A stretch of 64,000 bases of DNA. Origin: Simplicispira metamorpha. GTDB taxonomy: Bacteria; Pseudomonadota; Gammaproteobacteria; Burkholderiales; Burkholderiaceae_C. Positions 33,074 to 59,261 of this stretch are shown here, piece after piece. The position numbers and the translations under genes are program-made. The stretch spans positions 62,001 to 126,000 of the forward strand of contig NZ_SLXH01000007.1 of the NCBI RefSeq assembly GCF_004341365.1. The letters are read 5' to 3'. Each line of letters begins with the position of its first letter. The stretch's first letter is position 1. The notes beneath the pieces are model-generated. The model was not told the DNA's origin, did no database searches, and saw nothing but the letters and a program-made list of their open reading frames with translations.

Positions 33074-33649
33074 TCAGGCGCGCGGCAGTGTCACGCCGTG
33101 CTGGCCCTGGTATTTTCCGCCCCGGTCTTTGTACGACACCTCGCAGACATCGTCCTTATCGCTTTCAAAGAACAGCACCTGCGCGCAGCCTTCGCCCGCG
33201 TAAATGCGCGCAGGCAGCGGCGTGGTGTTGCTGAACTCCAGCGTCACATAGCCTTCCCATTCAGGCTCGAAGGGCGTGACGTTCACGATGATGCCGCAGC
33301 GTGCATACGTGCTTTTGCCCAGGCAAATGGTCAGCACGTTGCGCGGGATGCGGAAGTATTCGACGGTGCGCGCCAGCGCAAAGCTGTTGGGCGGGATGAT
33401 GCAGCTGTCGCCTTCAAAATCGACAAAGCTTTTTTCATCGAAGTTTTTGGGATCGACCACGGTGCTGTGGATGTTGGTAAACACCTTGAATTCCGGTGCG
33501 CAGCGGATGTCGTAGCCGTAGCTGCTGGTGCCGTAGCTGATGACCTTGTTGCCGTTGGCGGCCTGGCGCACTTGCCCGGGCTCGAAGGGCTCGATCATGC
33601 CGTGCTGCTCGGCCATGCGGCGGATCCATTTGTCGCTCTTGATGCTCAT
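33074..33649 (-). CDS. dcd: dCTP deaminase
   Basis: Converts dCTP to dUTP for thymidylate synthesis. The 191-residue protein contains the family core: [78 protein letters not shown] and the C-terminal nucleotide-binding [16 protein letters not shown]. The ATG at 33649 follows AGGAGCG. It stands alone between the phytase-like gene and BMP1. Confidence 0.96.
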
Positions 33650-33665
33650 GCGCGCTCCTGTCTGA

Positions 33666-33724
33666 ATTACTACGGTTTTGATAGCTGCAAGCGCTTGTCC
33701 TTCAAGCGCCAAAGCCGTATTTTG
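33666..33724. repeat. Copy of the interspersed repeat
   Basis: TACTACGGTTTTGATAGCTG, CAAGCGCTTGTCCTTCAAGCG, CCAAAGCCGTATTTTG. It fills the gap between dcd and the BMP gene upstream of it. Confidence 0.7.
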
Positions 33725-33747
33725 CTTGAGAAATGGCGGCGCGCAGG

Positions 33748-34869
33748 TCAGTGCGGCAGCTGGCCTTGCACGCCTTCGGCCAGCCAGTTCATTTGCAGGA
33801 TTTGCGCGTCGCTCAGGGTCTGGCCACGGGCAATGACCACCCGGCCCGTGTTGTCGCGCACCGCCGCCGTGGCAGCGCTGAAGGGGTGCAGCTGGCCCGC
33901 CCCCACGGCCTTTTGCGCGGCCAGCACTTGCTGCTGCACGTCGGCGGGCACTTTGGAGCCGAAGTCGCCCACGCGGATCATGCCCTCGCGCACACCGCCC
34001 CAGGTGTTGCGGCTTTTCCAGGTGCCTGCCAAGGCGGCGCGGGTGCGCTCGGTGTAGTAGCCACCCCATTCGTGGGTGACGGCCAGGATTTGCGCGTCCG
34101 GCCCCACTTTGCGCATGTCCGAGTGGTAGGCCACGGCCAGCTTGCCGCGCTCTTGCGCGGCCACCATGGCCGCGTTGGTGGCGGTGTGGAAGGCCAGCAC
34201 GTCCACGCCCTCGTTGAACAAGGCCATGGCCGCATCGCGCTCGCGTGGCGGATCGAACCAGGCGTTGAGCCACACCACCTTGACCTGCGCCTGCGGGTTC
34301 ACCGAGCGCATGCCCAGCGTGAAGGCGTTGATGCCCTGCAACACCTCAGGGATAGGAAAGCCCGCCACGTAACCGGCCACGCCACTCTTGGCCATGCGCC
34401 CAGCGGCAATGCCGGCCAGGTAGCGGCCCTCGTAGTAGCGGGCGTTGGCGGTGGCCACATTGGGCGTTTGCTTGTAGCCGGTAATCGACTCGAACTTCAC
34501 GCCCGGAAAATCCTGCGCCACCTTGAGCGTGGGCTCCATGTAGCCAAAACTGGTGGTGAAGATCAGGCCGTGGCCCGTGGCGGCCAGCTCGCGCACCACG
34601 CGCTCGGCGTCGGCGCCTTCGGGCACGTTCTCGATGCGGGTGGTTTGCACGCTGGCGCCCAGCGCCGCCTCGACGGCGCGGCGGCCTGCATCGTGCTGGC
34701 GCGTCCAGCCCACTTCCAGCACCGGCGTGACATAGACAAAACCGACCTTGAGCGGGGCCGCAACGGGCGCCGCAGCCGGTGCGCTGGCGGCTGCCGTGGC
34801 AGCAGTCTGCGAAAAAGCGGGAGAGAAAAAACAAGCGGCCGCGAGTGCGGCAGCGAGGTTTTTGTACAT
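33748..34869 (-). CDS. BMP family ABC transporter substrate-binding protein (copy 1)
   Basis: A 373-residue periplasmic binding protein of the BMP/PnrA (Med) family, which binds purines or nucleosides. Signal peptide ends about AFS-QT, followed by an Ala-rich linker. Core segments: [59 protein letters not shown] and [24 protein letters not shown]. It is clearly paralogous to the two copies at 36741 and 38012 but has no clear lipobox and lies outside their operon. Its mRNA has a structured GC-rich leader ending in a terminator hairpin 24 bases before the ATG, suggesting control by attenuation. Confidence 0.92.
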
Positions 34870-34893
34870 GGTGTTCCTCTACATGGCCCCCAG

Positions 34894-34984
34894 AAAAGAA
34901 AACACCCGGCGCTGGGGCTACGCGCCGGGTGAGGGTGCCGCCACAGGCGGGCATCGCTGCCAATTATCGCTGCGGGCGCAGCCC
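34894..34984 (-). promoter_or_regulatory. Structured 5' leader with terminator: candidate riboswitch or attenuator
   Basis: Read 5'-3' on the minus strand: a GGGC-TGC-GCCC hairpin (34974-34984), two direct GCAGCGAT repeats (34966-34973 and 34953-34960) flanking AATTG, a CCGCC-TGT-GGCGG hairpin (34938-34950), then CACCCGGCGC-loop-GCGCCGGGTG (34903-34931), a perfect 10-bp stem followed by TTTTCTTTT. The terminator sits directly before the BMP1 ATG, so it must be bypassed for expression. A purine-type aptamer is a guess from the downstream gene; nothing in the sequence proves a ligand. Confidence 0.6.
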
Positions 34985-36740: not shown

Positions 36741-37907
36741 TTACTGCTTGTCGCCGCCGGGAATCTTGCCTTCCACGCCCTTGACGTAGAAGTTGACGCC
36801 AGAGAGGAACTGATCGTCAGCTACCACGTCTTTGTCCAGCACCGGCTTGCCGTCCTGGCCTGCGATGGGGCCTTTCCAGATCACGAAGCTGCCGTCTTTC
36901 AGGCCGTTTTTCACGGCTTCGACTTTGGCCTTGGTGTCGGCGGGCACATCGTCGGCAATGGAGACAAGGTCAATGGCGCCCTCTTTCATGCCCCACCAGG
37001 CCTGGCCGGTGCTCCAGGTGCCGTCCAGCGCATCGCGGGTGGCCTTGATGTAGTAGGGGCCCCAGTTGATGATGGCCGATGCCAGGTGGGCCTTGGGGCC
37101 GTAGGCGGTCATATCGGAATCCCAGCCAAACGCGCGCTTGCCTTTTTCCTGGGCGGTCTTGAGCACAGCGGGCGAATCGGTGTTCTGGAACAGCACGTCA
37201 GCGCCCCCGTTGATCAGGCTGGTGGCGGCCTCGGTTTCTTTGGGGGGGCTGAACCATTCGTTCACCCACACCACCTTGGTCTTGATTTTGGGGTTCACCG
37301 ACTGCGCGCCCAGCGTGAAGCTGTTGATATTGCGCAGCACTTCCGGGATCGGCACGGAGCCGACCACGCCCAGCGTGTTGCTCTTGGTCATGGCGCCCGC
37401 GATGATGCCTGCCAGGTACGCGCCTTCGTAGGTGCGGCTGTCGTAGGTGCGCAGGTTGGCAGCGCTCTTGTAGCCGGTGGCATGCTCGAACTTGACCTCG
37501 GGGTGGTCTGCGGCCACTTTCACCATCGACTCCATGTAGCCAAAGGTGGTGCCAAACACCAGCTTGTTGCCTTGGCCGACGAAATCGCGCAGCACACGCT
37601 CGGCGTCGGCGGATTCGGGCACGCTCTCGACGAAGGTGGTCACGATCTTGTCGCCAAACTCTTTCTCCAGCGCTTTGCGGCCATTGTCGTGGGCATACGA
37701 CCATCCACCGTCGCCCACAGGGCCGACGTAGGCGAAGGCAATCTTCAGTGGCTCGGGCTTGGGGGCGGGGGCCTCTGCCGCAGGCGCCGGGGCGGGAGCG
37801 GGCGCCGGAGCGGGTTCCTCCTTCTTGCCACAGGCCACCAGCATGGCGGCGGCCACAGCAGACAGGGCTGTTGCCTTGAGCAGGGAGCGTTTTTGAAGAT
37901 CGGTCAT
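36741..37907 (-). CDS. BMP family ABC transporter substrate-binding lipoprotein (copy 2)
   Basis: A 388-residue lipoprotein of the BMP/PnrA family: lipobox LVACGKKEE at about Cys26, followed by a Pro/Ala repeat spacer (PAPAPAPAPA) and the ligand domain starting LKIAFAYVGPVGDGGWSYAHDNGRKALE. Other landmarks: FGTTFGYMESMVKVA, AYLAGIIAGAMTKSNTLGVVGS, WVNEWFSPPKETEAATSLINGGADVLFQNTDS. It closely resembles copy 3 upstream; the start is ATG 37907 (MTDLQKRSLLKATALSAV). Together with the permeases and ATPase it should import purine bases or nucleosides. Confidence 0.94.
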   Translation of the reverse strand: MTDLQKRSLLKATALSAVAAAMLVACGKKEEPAPAPAPAPAPAAEAPAPKPEPLKIAFAYVGPVGDGGWSYAHDNGRKALEKEFGDKIVTTFVESVPESADAERVLRDFVGQGNKLVFGTTFGYMESMVKVAADHPEVKFEHATGYKSAANLRTYDSRTYEGAYLAGIIAGAMTKSNTLGVVGSVPIPEVLRNINSFTLGAQSVNPKIKTKVVWVNEWFSPPKETEAATSLINGGADVLFQNTDSPAVLKTAQEKGKRAFGWDSDMTAYGPKAHLASAIINWGPYYIKATRDALDGTWSTGQAWWGMKEGAIDLVSIADDVPADTKAKVEAVKNGLKDGSFVIWKGPIAGQDGKPVLDKDVVADDQFLSGVNFYVKGVEGKIPGGDKQ

Positions 37908-38011
37908 GGTGGTAATTTCCTTAAAGGGGGGTCTGTGTTCCACAGGTAGAGGGGTGCCAGCGCAGGTCTGCCCGACATGGCACGGACAGGCTGCGCCAAT
38001 ATAACCAGTGC

Positions 38012-39163
38012 TTATTTGGCGCTGGGCACTTTGCCATCAACGCCGTTGACGTAGAAGTCAATGCCGGTCAGGAAAGCGTTGTCACCGACCTTGCCTGCGG
38101 GCAGCACTTCTTTGCCGGTGTTGTCCTGCACCGGGCCTGTCCAGACGTGGAAGCTCCCGTCCTTCAGGCCCGCCCTGGCCTTGGCCACGCGGTCTTTGAT
38201 CTCCTGGGGTACGTCGTCGGCGATTTTCACGAGGTCGATAGCGCCCTCCTTGACGCCCCACCAGAAAGAGCCGCCTTGCCACTGGCCGTTGAGCGTGTCC
38301 TGGGTGACTTTGGTGTAGTAAGGCGCCCAGTCGATCACTGCCGAGCCCAGGTGTGCCTGGGGTGCAAAGGCGCTCATGTCGCCATCTTTGCCAAAGGCAC
38401 GCACGCCGCGCTCTTGTGCGGTTTTGAGCACGGCGGGGGAGTTGGTGTTCTGGTAGAGCACATCGACGCCGCCGTTGATGAGGCTGGTGGCGGCTTCAGA
38501 CTCTTTGGGCGGGCTGAACCATTCGTTCACCCACACCACCTTGGCCTTGATGGCGGGGTCCACACTTTGCGCGCCCAGCACAAAGCTGTTGATGTTGCGC
38601 ACCACTTCGGGGATGGGCACGGAGGCCACTACGCCGATGGTCTTGGTTTTGCTCATGCCACCCGCAACGATACCGGCCAGGTACGCACCCTCAAAGGTCT
38701 TGGTGTCGTAGGTGGCCACGTTGTCGGCGGTTTTGTAGCCGGTGGCGTGCTCGAACTTCACGCCTTTGAGGTCGGCAGCGGACTTTTGCACAAACTCCTG
38801 GTAACCAAAGCTGGTGGCAAACACCAGCTGGTTGCCTTGGCTGGCCATATCGCGCAGCACGCGCTCGGAGTCAGCGCCCTCGGGCACGCTCTCGACAAAG
38901 CTGGTCACGATCTTGTCGCCAAACTTGTCCTGGATGGCACGGCGGCCCAGCTCATGCTGGTACGTCCAGCCGCCGTCCCCGATGGGGCTGACGTACATGA
39001 AAGCGATTTTCAAAGGCTCGCTCTTGGCACTGGCCGGAGCCACGGGGGCAGCCGCAGGTGCAGCTTCTTCTTTTTTGCCACAGCCAGCCAGGGCGGCAGT
39101 GGCCGCCGCTACGGCGGCCCAGGCAGCCGTTTGGAGCAGCCAGCGTTTGTGCAAATTGGTCAT
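38012..39163 (-). CDS. BMP family ABC transporter substrate-binding lipoprotein (copy 3)
   Basis: A 383-residue lipoprotein paralogous to copy 2. The lipobox is LAGCGKKEE, with an Ala-rich spacer and LKIAFMYVSPIGDGGWTYQHELGRRAIQ. The core is nearly collinear with copy 2 throughout (RVLRDMASQGNQLVFATSFGYQE, WVNEWFSPPKESEAATSLINGGVDVLYQNTNS), so a tandem duplication is likely. It lies directly behind the second permease gene (51-bp gap). The two copies may differ in ligand preference or affinity. Confidence 0.94.
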   Translation of the reverse strand: MTNLHKRWLLQTAAWAAVAAATAALAGCGKKEEAAPAAAPVAPASAKSEPLKIAFMYVSPIGDGGWTYQHELGRRAIQDKFGDKIVTSFVESVPEGADSERVLRDMASQGNQLVFATSFGYQEFVQKSAADLKGVKFEHATGYKTADNVATYDTKTFEGAYLAGIVAGGMSKTKTIGVVASVPIPEVVRNINSFVLGAQSVDPAIKAKVVWVNEWFSPPKESEAATSLINGGVDVLYQNTNSPAVLKTAQERGVRAFGKDGDMSAFAPQAHLGSAVIDWAPYYTKVTQDTLNGQWQGGSFWWGVKEGAIDLVKIADDVPQEIKDRVAKARAGLKDGSFHVWTGPVQDNTGKEVLPAGKVGDNAFLTGIDFYVNGVDGKVPSAK

Positions 39164-59074: not shown

Positions 59075-59261
59075 CCCGTTTACACCCCAGATAGACCCGC
59101 CTCGAAACCGGGCCGAAAAGCGGGACACCTTCACCCGCCTGCTGGAGTATCTCGACAAGCTCCACGACAACTTCATGCGTGAAATGGAAGAAGGCTCCAA
59201 CATCCACGCCAAGAACGACGACTCCACGGTGTACAACGCGCGCAGATGTGTAAATGTTTGA
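59019..59261 (+). CDS. Possible small gene overlapping the XRE gene end
   Basis: 80 codons with a polar, helix-like stretch (RDTFTRLLEYLDKLHDNFMREMEEGSNIHAKNDDSTVYNA). The first 18 codons overlap the XRE gene in another frame and no ribosome site is clear. It may start later (for example in the GTGTAC-free part after 59075) or not be translated. No recognised family. Confidence 0.3.
   Translation: MPRRLGAVLWCGWNQPTPDPFTPQIDPPRNRAEKRDTFTRLLEYLDKLHDNFMREMEEGSNIHAKNDDSTVYNARRCVNV

Follow-up and report, generated by a model that had tools for sequence, protein, structure and literature searches.

The window analysed here is a stretch of 64,000 nt from Simplicispira metamorpha (GCF_004341365.1, contig NZ_SLXH01000007.1, positions 62,001-126,000 of the forward strand). 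BMP1 and the leader that precedes it are read on its minus strand (Table 1), and at 33616-33748 BMP1 gives way directly to the dCTP deaminase gene dcd. Elsewhere in the window (36741-39163, minus strand), two tandem Bmp substrate-binding genes are followed by two permease genes and an ATPase gene; the two Bmp proteins are about 64% identical to each other and about 44% to BMP1, and the exact leader block described below is found only at BMP1.

Table 1. The leader and BMP1 in the window, listed in the direction of transcription
Feature	Position	Strand	Sequence	Remarks
-10-like box	34963..34968	-	GATAAT	start of transcription predicted from sequence about 7 nt downstream
Extra sequence	34932..34962	-		between the -10-like box and S1; outside the conserved element
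Small hairpin	within 34932..34962	-	CCGCC-TGT-GGCGG	within the extra sequence
S1, 5′ strand	34922..34931	-	CACCCGGCGC	predicted pseudoknot stem
L1	34919..34921	-	GTA	loop
S2, 5′ strand	34914..34918	-	GCCCC	inside the hairpin loop of S1
S1, 3′ strand	34903..34912	-	GCGCCGGGTG	predicted pseudoknot stem
L3	34891..34902	-	TTTTCTTTTCTG	U-rich loop; the U-run of the sequence-only reading
S2, 3′ strand	34886..34890	-	GGGGC	downstream of the U-run
Initiation block	34855..34886	-	CCATGTAGAGGAACACC-ATG-TAC-AAA-AAC-CTC	-17 to +15; SD GAGGA, start codon, codons 2-5
BMP1	33748..34869	-		PnrA-like (Bmp) ABC-transporter substrate-binding protein; Pfam PF02608; gene presumed to be controlled

A sequence-only reading of positions 34894-34984 had pointed to direct repeats, a perfect 10-bp hairpin and a U-run ahead of BMP1, and all of these are present: S1 is a perfect 10-bp stem (CACCCGGCGC/GCGCCGGGTG) followed by TTTTCTTTT, and GCAGCGAT occurs twice (34973-34966 and 34960-34953, minus strand). 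The 91-nt range folds at -47.9 kcal/mol, compared with -37.4 ± 3.07 for shuffled sequences (z -3.42; none of 200 shuffles as good), and the 141-nt stretch reaching the start codon shows ordinary nested-fold stability (z -0.74). The structure placed in this range is real but its boundaries were wrong, as they omit 34890-34886 and also 34886-34855, the most conserved part. One copy of GCAGCGAT (34960-34953) falls within some 25 nt of additional sequence ahead of S1; the second copy overlaps the GATAAT box. No copy was found in the 260 nt before BMP1 in any of 13 relatives of the same genus; the repeat was therefore rejected as a conserved feature and placed outside the conserved element.

Homologous leaders were collected by two protein searches. 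The genus search covered 26 genomes, of which 21 gave a BMP1 match (76-100% identity in 14); the family search covered 250 genomes, 90 with a match at E≤1e-120, one of which (G210) was left unread as its start is missing. As only 90 of the 250 family genomes carry such a match, not every member of the family can be expected to have the element. A near-invariant block spanning the BMP1 start was found before BMP1 in 95 of the 100 distinct homologues for which a start was readable (14/14 close orthologues in the genus set and 84/89 readable ones in the family set, three genomes being common to both). Two of these carry one-letter variants counted as having the block (L244 and L247, the latter by eye, as the pattern missed it); L263 came from the pattern search and stands outside the 95/100. 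What these leaders have in common is a hairpin whose sequence varies, a usually U-rich loop and a short, usually G-rich strand, followed by the block; this arrangement is absent in L061, L083, L086, L095 and L096. In L086 the block appears decayed (GTCGAGCAACACCATGATGTTCAAAACC) and the pseudoknot is not evident, a possible case of element loss. Further upstream, the context varies between genomes (a divergent HIT gene; a tRNA-like stretch in L004 and L005, seen by eye; other sequence), and the element therefore belongs to BMP1.

Scanning the GTDB collection with a sequence pattern returned at least 117 stretches, of which at least 112 were judged true on leader and coding start; chance matches lacking the coding part (L156, L173, L194, L202, L212) were dropped, and L204 was excluded from the leader sets because of an assembly gap. 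Of the 112 matches listed, 102 are Burkholderiales according to their record titles, 8 carry no order and 2 bear other titles. Records titled Akkermansia muciniphila (L208) and Sulfuritalea (L206) hold elements before BMP1 or queE, possibly as mis-binned contigs or through transfer. In a sample of 399 genomes of the order, true elements outside the window's family (whose records are titled Comamonadaceae or similarly) were limited to two genomes, both from a single second family (L115, L116), in both cases before BMP1 with guaD behind it; a sample of 274 genomes of the class gave no further element judged true. A covariance model (R1) built on sequence, S2 and the GAGG/CCUC pairs scored 19 of 200 genomes at E≤0.1, of which four, in the window's family, were convincing. 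The other 15 loci (about 3 kb each) had no match to BMP1, QueE, QueD or GuaD, and elements in other families proposed through R1 were set aside as unconvincing on this ground. In the window genome itself the block occurs exactly once, at BMP1, which limits inference from gene association; four further candidate copies require 3 mismatches and were rejected, a backward control giving 3.

The leaders share more than a hairpin. In the window, the S1 loop GCCCC (34918-34914) can pair with GGGGC (34890-34886), a strand 3′ of the stem as in an H-type pseudoknot, and compensatory changes are seen in both stems. For S2, relatives carry GTCCC/GGGAC, GCTCC/GGAGC, GCTTC/GAAGC, GCTGC/GCAGC, GCCAC/GTGGC, GCGCC/GGCGC and others, with 27 five-mer combinations among the leaders when wobble and 4-bp cases are counted. 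When the hairpin was picked blind to S2, at least 5 Watson-Crick pairs between the loop and the leader's own downstream strand were obtained in 56 of 76 leaders, where 2000 permutations averaged 19.5 and never exceeded 32; the remaining 20 leaders had fewer than 5 such pairs. This blind test avoids a bias inherent in the pairing across the leader set, the geometry of the 189 leaders and the tree test below, where the S2 strand was taken as the best-pairing one, which favours S2.

Covariation was scored on a MAFFT alignment (A2) of 62 of the 76 leaders, from which 14 near-duplicate or hard-to-align leaders were omitted (L004, L005, L008, L009, L010, L012, L033, L044, L058, L075, L085, L088, L090, L094). 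Double-sided changes were observed at 9/9 S1 pairs and 5/6 S2 pairs. Paired cells amounted to 90.3% for S2 and 70.1% for S1, the latter figure reflecting misalignment, partly or wholly. Taken as a whole, the structure had a covariation score of 0.253 against 0.123 ± 0.009 for shuffles and at most 0.140 for slid versions (62 leaders), and the count of 14 pairs changed on both sides was equalled by 5 of 500 shuffles. At least 47 changes of the S2 variant were counted on a FastTree phylogeny built from 120 BMP1 proteins; among independent tree pairs, both sides of S2 changed together in 4.6/14, 3.5/7, 5.2/8 and 5.2/8 (positions 2 to 5) and almost never in opposite directions (average 0.0), single positions all staying above p 0.05 at the median. 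The compensatory changes that the sequence-only reading would have looked for in homologous leaders are thus abundant in S1 and in S2.

Under a permissive score, both stems are present in 178 of 189 distinct leaders and are weak or missing in 11 (L200, L217, L224 and L240, for example). Among these 178, S1 has 8-11 bp in 155, 11 being the longest stem searched for; L1 measures 1-2 nt in 158, L2 0 nt in 154, S2 5-7 bp in 167 and L3 10-15 nt in 143, L3 being 54% U; these dimensions resemble those of classical H-type pseudoknots. In L085 the U-rich L3 carries an additional GGCGCC hairpin, both pseudoknot stems being retained. We conclude that the leader is almost certainly a real RNA element, and the pseudoknot fold, as read from pairing and covariation, is well supported.

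The position of the putative promoter bears on how this fold is placed in the mRNA. The nearest TANVAT box ends 5-8 nt ahead of S1 in 104 of the 178 leaders, 9-12 nt ahead in 15 and 0-4 nt ahead in 13, none being found within 30 nt in 39. As 5-8 nt is about the normal spacing from a -10 element to the transcription start, the transcript probably begins at S1 or shortly before it, and the pseudoknot would then form the 5′ end of the mRNA. A promoter scan of the leader region reported no sigma-70 site. In the window, GATAAT (34968-34963) stands 31 nt from S1 because the extra sequence with a GCAGCGAT copy intervenes.

The most conserved part of the element is the block CCATGT[A/C]GAGGANNACC-ATG-NNN-AAAAACCTC, which extends from -17 to +15, about the footprint of an initiating ribosome, and whose ATG is the BMP1 start. 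Apart from the N and bracketed positions, every column from CCATGT through CTC shows little or no variation across 143 distinct leaders, some of which were found by a pattern fixing the 5′ half of the block and leaving codons 2-5 free. AAA stands at codon 3 in 99% of these leaders, and all of them have AAC at codon 4 and CTC at codon 5. In the rest of BMP1 (89 genes), AAA accounts for 23.5% of Lys, AAC for 76.5% of Asn and CTC for 23.3% of Leu codons; because codon usage elsewhere in these genes differs, codons 3-5 are constrained at the nucleic-acid level. Pairing of GAGG (the SD) with CCUC (codons 4-5) and of CAUG with CAUG could form a second, SD-hiding pseudoknot; both helices are invariant in the aligned leaders, so that covariation neither backs nor counters them. 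A folding program put forward a UGUA/UACA helix covering the SD; this helix was discarded since codon-2 variants such as AUGACC, AUGCUC and AUGAAU break it. An AUG-UAG start-stop (34885-34870 in the window), 15 nt before the start codon and in frame with it, is found in 87% of the 143 leaders; in the other 13%, UCG replaces UAG and would lengthen BMP1 by five residues, and this in-frame read-through led us to reject the upstream ORF as a regulator. The two halves of the block are alike (CCATGTAGAGGAACA / CCATGTACAAAAACC, 34855-34886), as though they came from a 15-nt duplication.

The genes associated with the element form a metabolically coherent set, and a conserved structured 5′ leader of such genes is what is expected of a riboswitch. 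Among the 112 matches listed, the element is followed by BMP1 in 99, ADA lies upstream in 62 and queE downstream in 14; the first gene is undecided at L143, L154 and L243, where loci are incomplete or broken. Of the listed BMP1 loci, 26 were too short for guaD to be judged. The 73 judgeable ones divide into 44 with guaD no more than 3 kb behind BMP1 and 29 without it over 2.5 kb or more of sequence. A dCTP deaminase gene directly behind BMP1, as in the window, occurs in 10 of the listed loci. The order BMP1-queE-queD-guaD is found in L171 and L172, and also in L146 with broken reading frames; in L172, QueE and GuaD score above NCBIfam cut-offs and QueD below. The window genome has queE away from BMP1 and gave no guanine deaminase match in a search run there without a positive control.

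At 11 of the listed loci (L137, L147, L152, L180, L184, L186, L195, L199, L206, L220, L239), BMP1 is lost or truncated at this place, the element and a 15-nt start ATGTAYAAAAACCTC are retained, and queE follows. Behind queE, with some contigs being short, queD is found in 7/11 and guaD in 6/11 of these listed loci; in L199, guaD is absent over 5.2 kb. At 6 of these 11 loci the stub ORF and queE share an ATGA overlap, and several stubs are not recognisable as BMP1 past the first codons. Because the element and ATGTAYAAAAACCTC stay where BMP1 is lost, the arrangement argues that the leader and the first five codons would act as a unit serving the operon, whatever its first gene.

The solved structures nearest to the BMP1 protein are 3s99, in which adenine was modelled, and AtzT (6pi5), a close homologue (E 1.4e-98). 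AtzT co-purified with guanine, for which its affinity is 110 nM according to the available text of its description (PMC6834077), which mentions no leader RNA. With residue numbering matched by hand on the SF and NTN motifs of the pairwise alignment, the AtzT contacts given in that text are kept at Ser97 (S107 in BMP1), Phe98 (F108), Glu165 (E175) and Trp194 (W204) and changed at Tyr45 (W55), Asn218 (H228) and Asn220 (A230). The BMP1 pocket is therefore likely, as far as residue comparison can tell, to be of the purine type with an altered specificity.

We then compared the leader with known RNAs. In the Rfam 15 search of the window, the copy searched presumably including the NMT1 and preQ1 models, no family reached its gathering score in the leader stretch; the 11 sub-threshold matches there (E≤10) comprise no riboswitch. 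The only gathering-level match of the window is an int-alpA RNA (59084-59160, plus strand, 42.6 bits), which suggests a nearby prophage or integrative element. Leaders of 20 relatives yielded three matches, to rnk_pseudo, tfoR and P6, at E≤1, each scoring well below gathering and none a riboswitch; preQ1-I, -II and -III covariance models matched neither the window stretch nor these relatives. The NMT1 and purine models proposed as a check by the sequence-only reading thus yielded no riboswitch match even far below threshold, and membership in NMT1 or any Rfam family was rejected on these sub-threshold, non-riboswitch matches. In the open-access PMC literature, judged by titles and abstract openings, no description of the leader was found. 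It may overlap Burkholderiales-1, which appears, in the available text of PMC2864571, as a table entry without an Rfam number.

NMT1 (xanthine-I) shares with the present element its occurrence in proteobacteria, genes of purine oxidation and transport, control at the ribosome-binding site (probable in the present case) and targets of the guanine-deaminase type; as described in the available text of PMC7373994, in which the word pseudoknot does not occur, it is a two-stem bulged hairpin with conserved junctions, in contrast to the variable S1 hairpin and loop-to-downstream helix found here. The earlier suggestion of NMT1 or an undescribed class thus holds for a structured regulatory leader, possibly undescribed, and fails for NMT1. 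The nearest in style is preQ1-I, an H-type pseudoknot of queuosine genes able to hide the SD (type III in particular), according to the available text of PMC11625349: the present element is likewise a small H-type pseudoknot near the SD, for which a translational mode is plausible, and queE and queD follow it in a minority of the listed loci. It differs from preQ1-I in its main first gene, BMP1, in the near-invariant part reaching codon 5, in the variability of S1 and the knot strand, and in the lack of an Rfam match. AAAAA precedes CCUC, and GAGG/CCUC could resemble the P2 of preQ1-I with its A-rich tail, but this pairing never varies. Purine (guanine/adenine) riboswitches, three-way junctions with kissing loops, have a different fold and gave no Rfam match. 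SAM-II and SAM-V are H-type pseudoknot riboswitches with the pseudoknot near the SD, as here, but are associated with other genes and other conserved letters, and no Rfam match to them was obtained. The mRNAs of T4 gene 32 and rpsO carry autoregulatory pseudoknots that control ribosome entry and resemble the present one in lying near the mRNA 5′ end; in contrast to their products, BMP1 is predicted to be periplasmic, and its binding to its own mRNA is therefore unlikely.

Four other explanations have to be weighed. A conserved trans-acting sRNA or an RNA-binding protein could target -17 to +15, the pseudoknot presenting the site or protecting the 5′ end. The near-invariant block does cover the ribosome landing site, where repressive sRNAs often bind, and its internal helices show no covariation; the strong covariation of S2 beside the SD would however require a separate reason, and we consider this explanation unlikely, if deserving of attention. 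Alternatively, a 5′-terminal knotted hairpin might stabilise the mRNA next to an optimised ribosome-binding site, without any sensing. 5′-terminal hairpins are known mRNA stabilisers, S1 lies at the predicted transcription start and L3 is U-rich, but neither the invariance of CCAUGU and of the CTC at codon 5 nor the compensatory stem between the loop and the downstream strand would be explained, which makes such a constitutive role improbable.

The sequence-only reading had taken the hairpin and U-run for a terminator, which would make the leader a transcription attenuator with S2 as the alternative to S1. Both parts are there in the window (10 perfect bp followed by TTTTCTTTT), and a run of 5 T or more among the first 8 nt past S1 is seen in 129 of the 178 leaders that hold both stems. 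The reading as a terminator is nonetheless doubtful: the loop is one half of the pseudoknot, 49 of the 178 keep both stems and have fewer than 5 T, the 3′ strand of S2 would be transcribed only past the termination point, and the terminated RNA would measure only about 35 nt if transcription starts at S1. A terminator scan did not report the S1 hairpin, its loop limit being 8 and the S1 loop 9. Of the four explanations, we give the attenuator the slimmest chance. A known riboswitch (NMT1/xanthine-I, preQ1-I/II/III or purine) that has diverged beyond its model is very improbable as well: the gene company suits purine and queuosine classes and preQ1-I is also an SD-hiding H-type pseudoknot, but the sub-threshold Rfam matches include no riboswitch and NMT1 is a bulged hairpin. 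To our knowledge, invariant letters in the ribosome site and codons are unlike the consensus models of the NMT1, preQ1 and purine classes.

We lean, by little more than an even call, towards an undescribed cis-regulatory RNA leader that controls translation initiation and is perhaps a purine or 7-deazapurine riboswitch. Taken separately, control of translation initiation is probable; that the leader binds a metabolite is evenly balanced; a guanine-like ligand is less likely than not, the candidates being guanine, xanthine and a 7-deazaguanine such as preQ1. In the proposed mechanism, the transcript would start at or shortly before S1, and S1 and S2 would make an H-type pseudoknot whose 3′ edge, at -17, borders the ribosome landing site. 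This site (-17 to +15, with the SD and codons 3-5) would in turn belong to the RNA element. The SD and start codon would be accessible in one state; in the other, with a small purine-like ligand bound, the knot together with GAGG/CCUC, and possibly CAUG/CAUG, would hide them. The operon so controlled would comprise BMP1, in many relatives guaD and sometimes queE-queD. A bolder version, which we regard as rather unlikely, would be a new class of guanine/7-deazaguanine riboswitches with the landing site inside the aptamer: the pseudoknot would stack on a second one made of CAUG/CAUG and GAGG/CCUC, ligand binding would bury the SD and AUG, and at loci without BMP1 the stub ORF would pass ribosomes to queE.

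If the favoured reading is true, the leader present before 95 of the 100 sampled BMP1 homologues would be a new orphan riboswitch candidate, with an aptamer extending into the coding sequence, and BMP1 would be an importer of purines or queuosine precursors. The gene associations narrow the ligands to guanine, xanthine and preQ1/preQ0, so that the question of the ligand would be directly testable.
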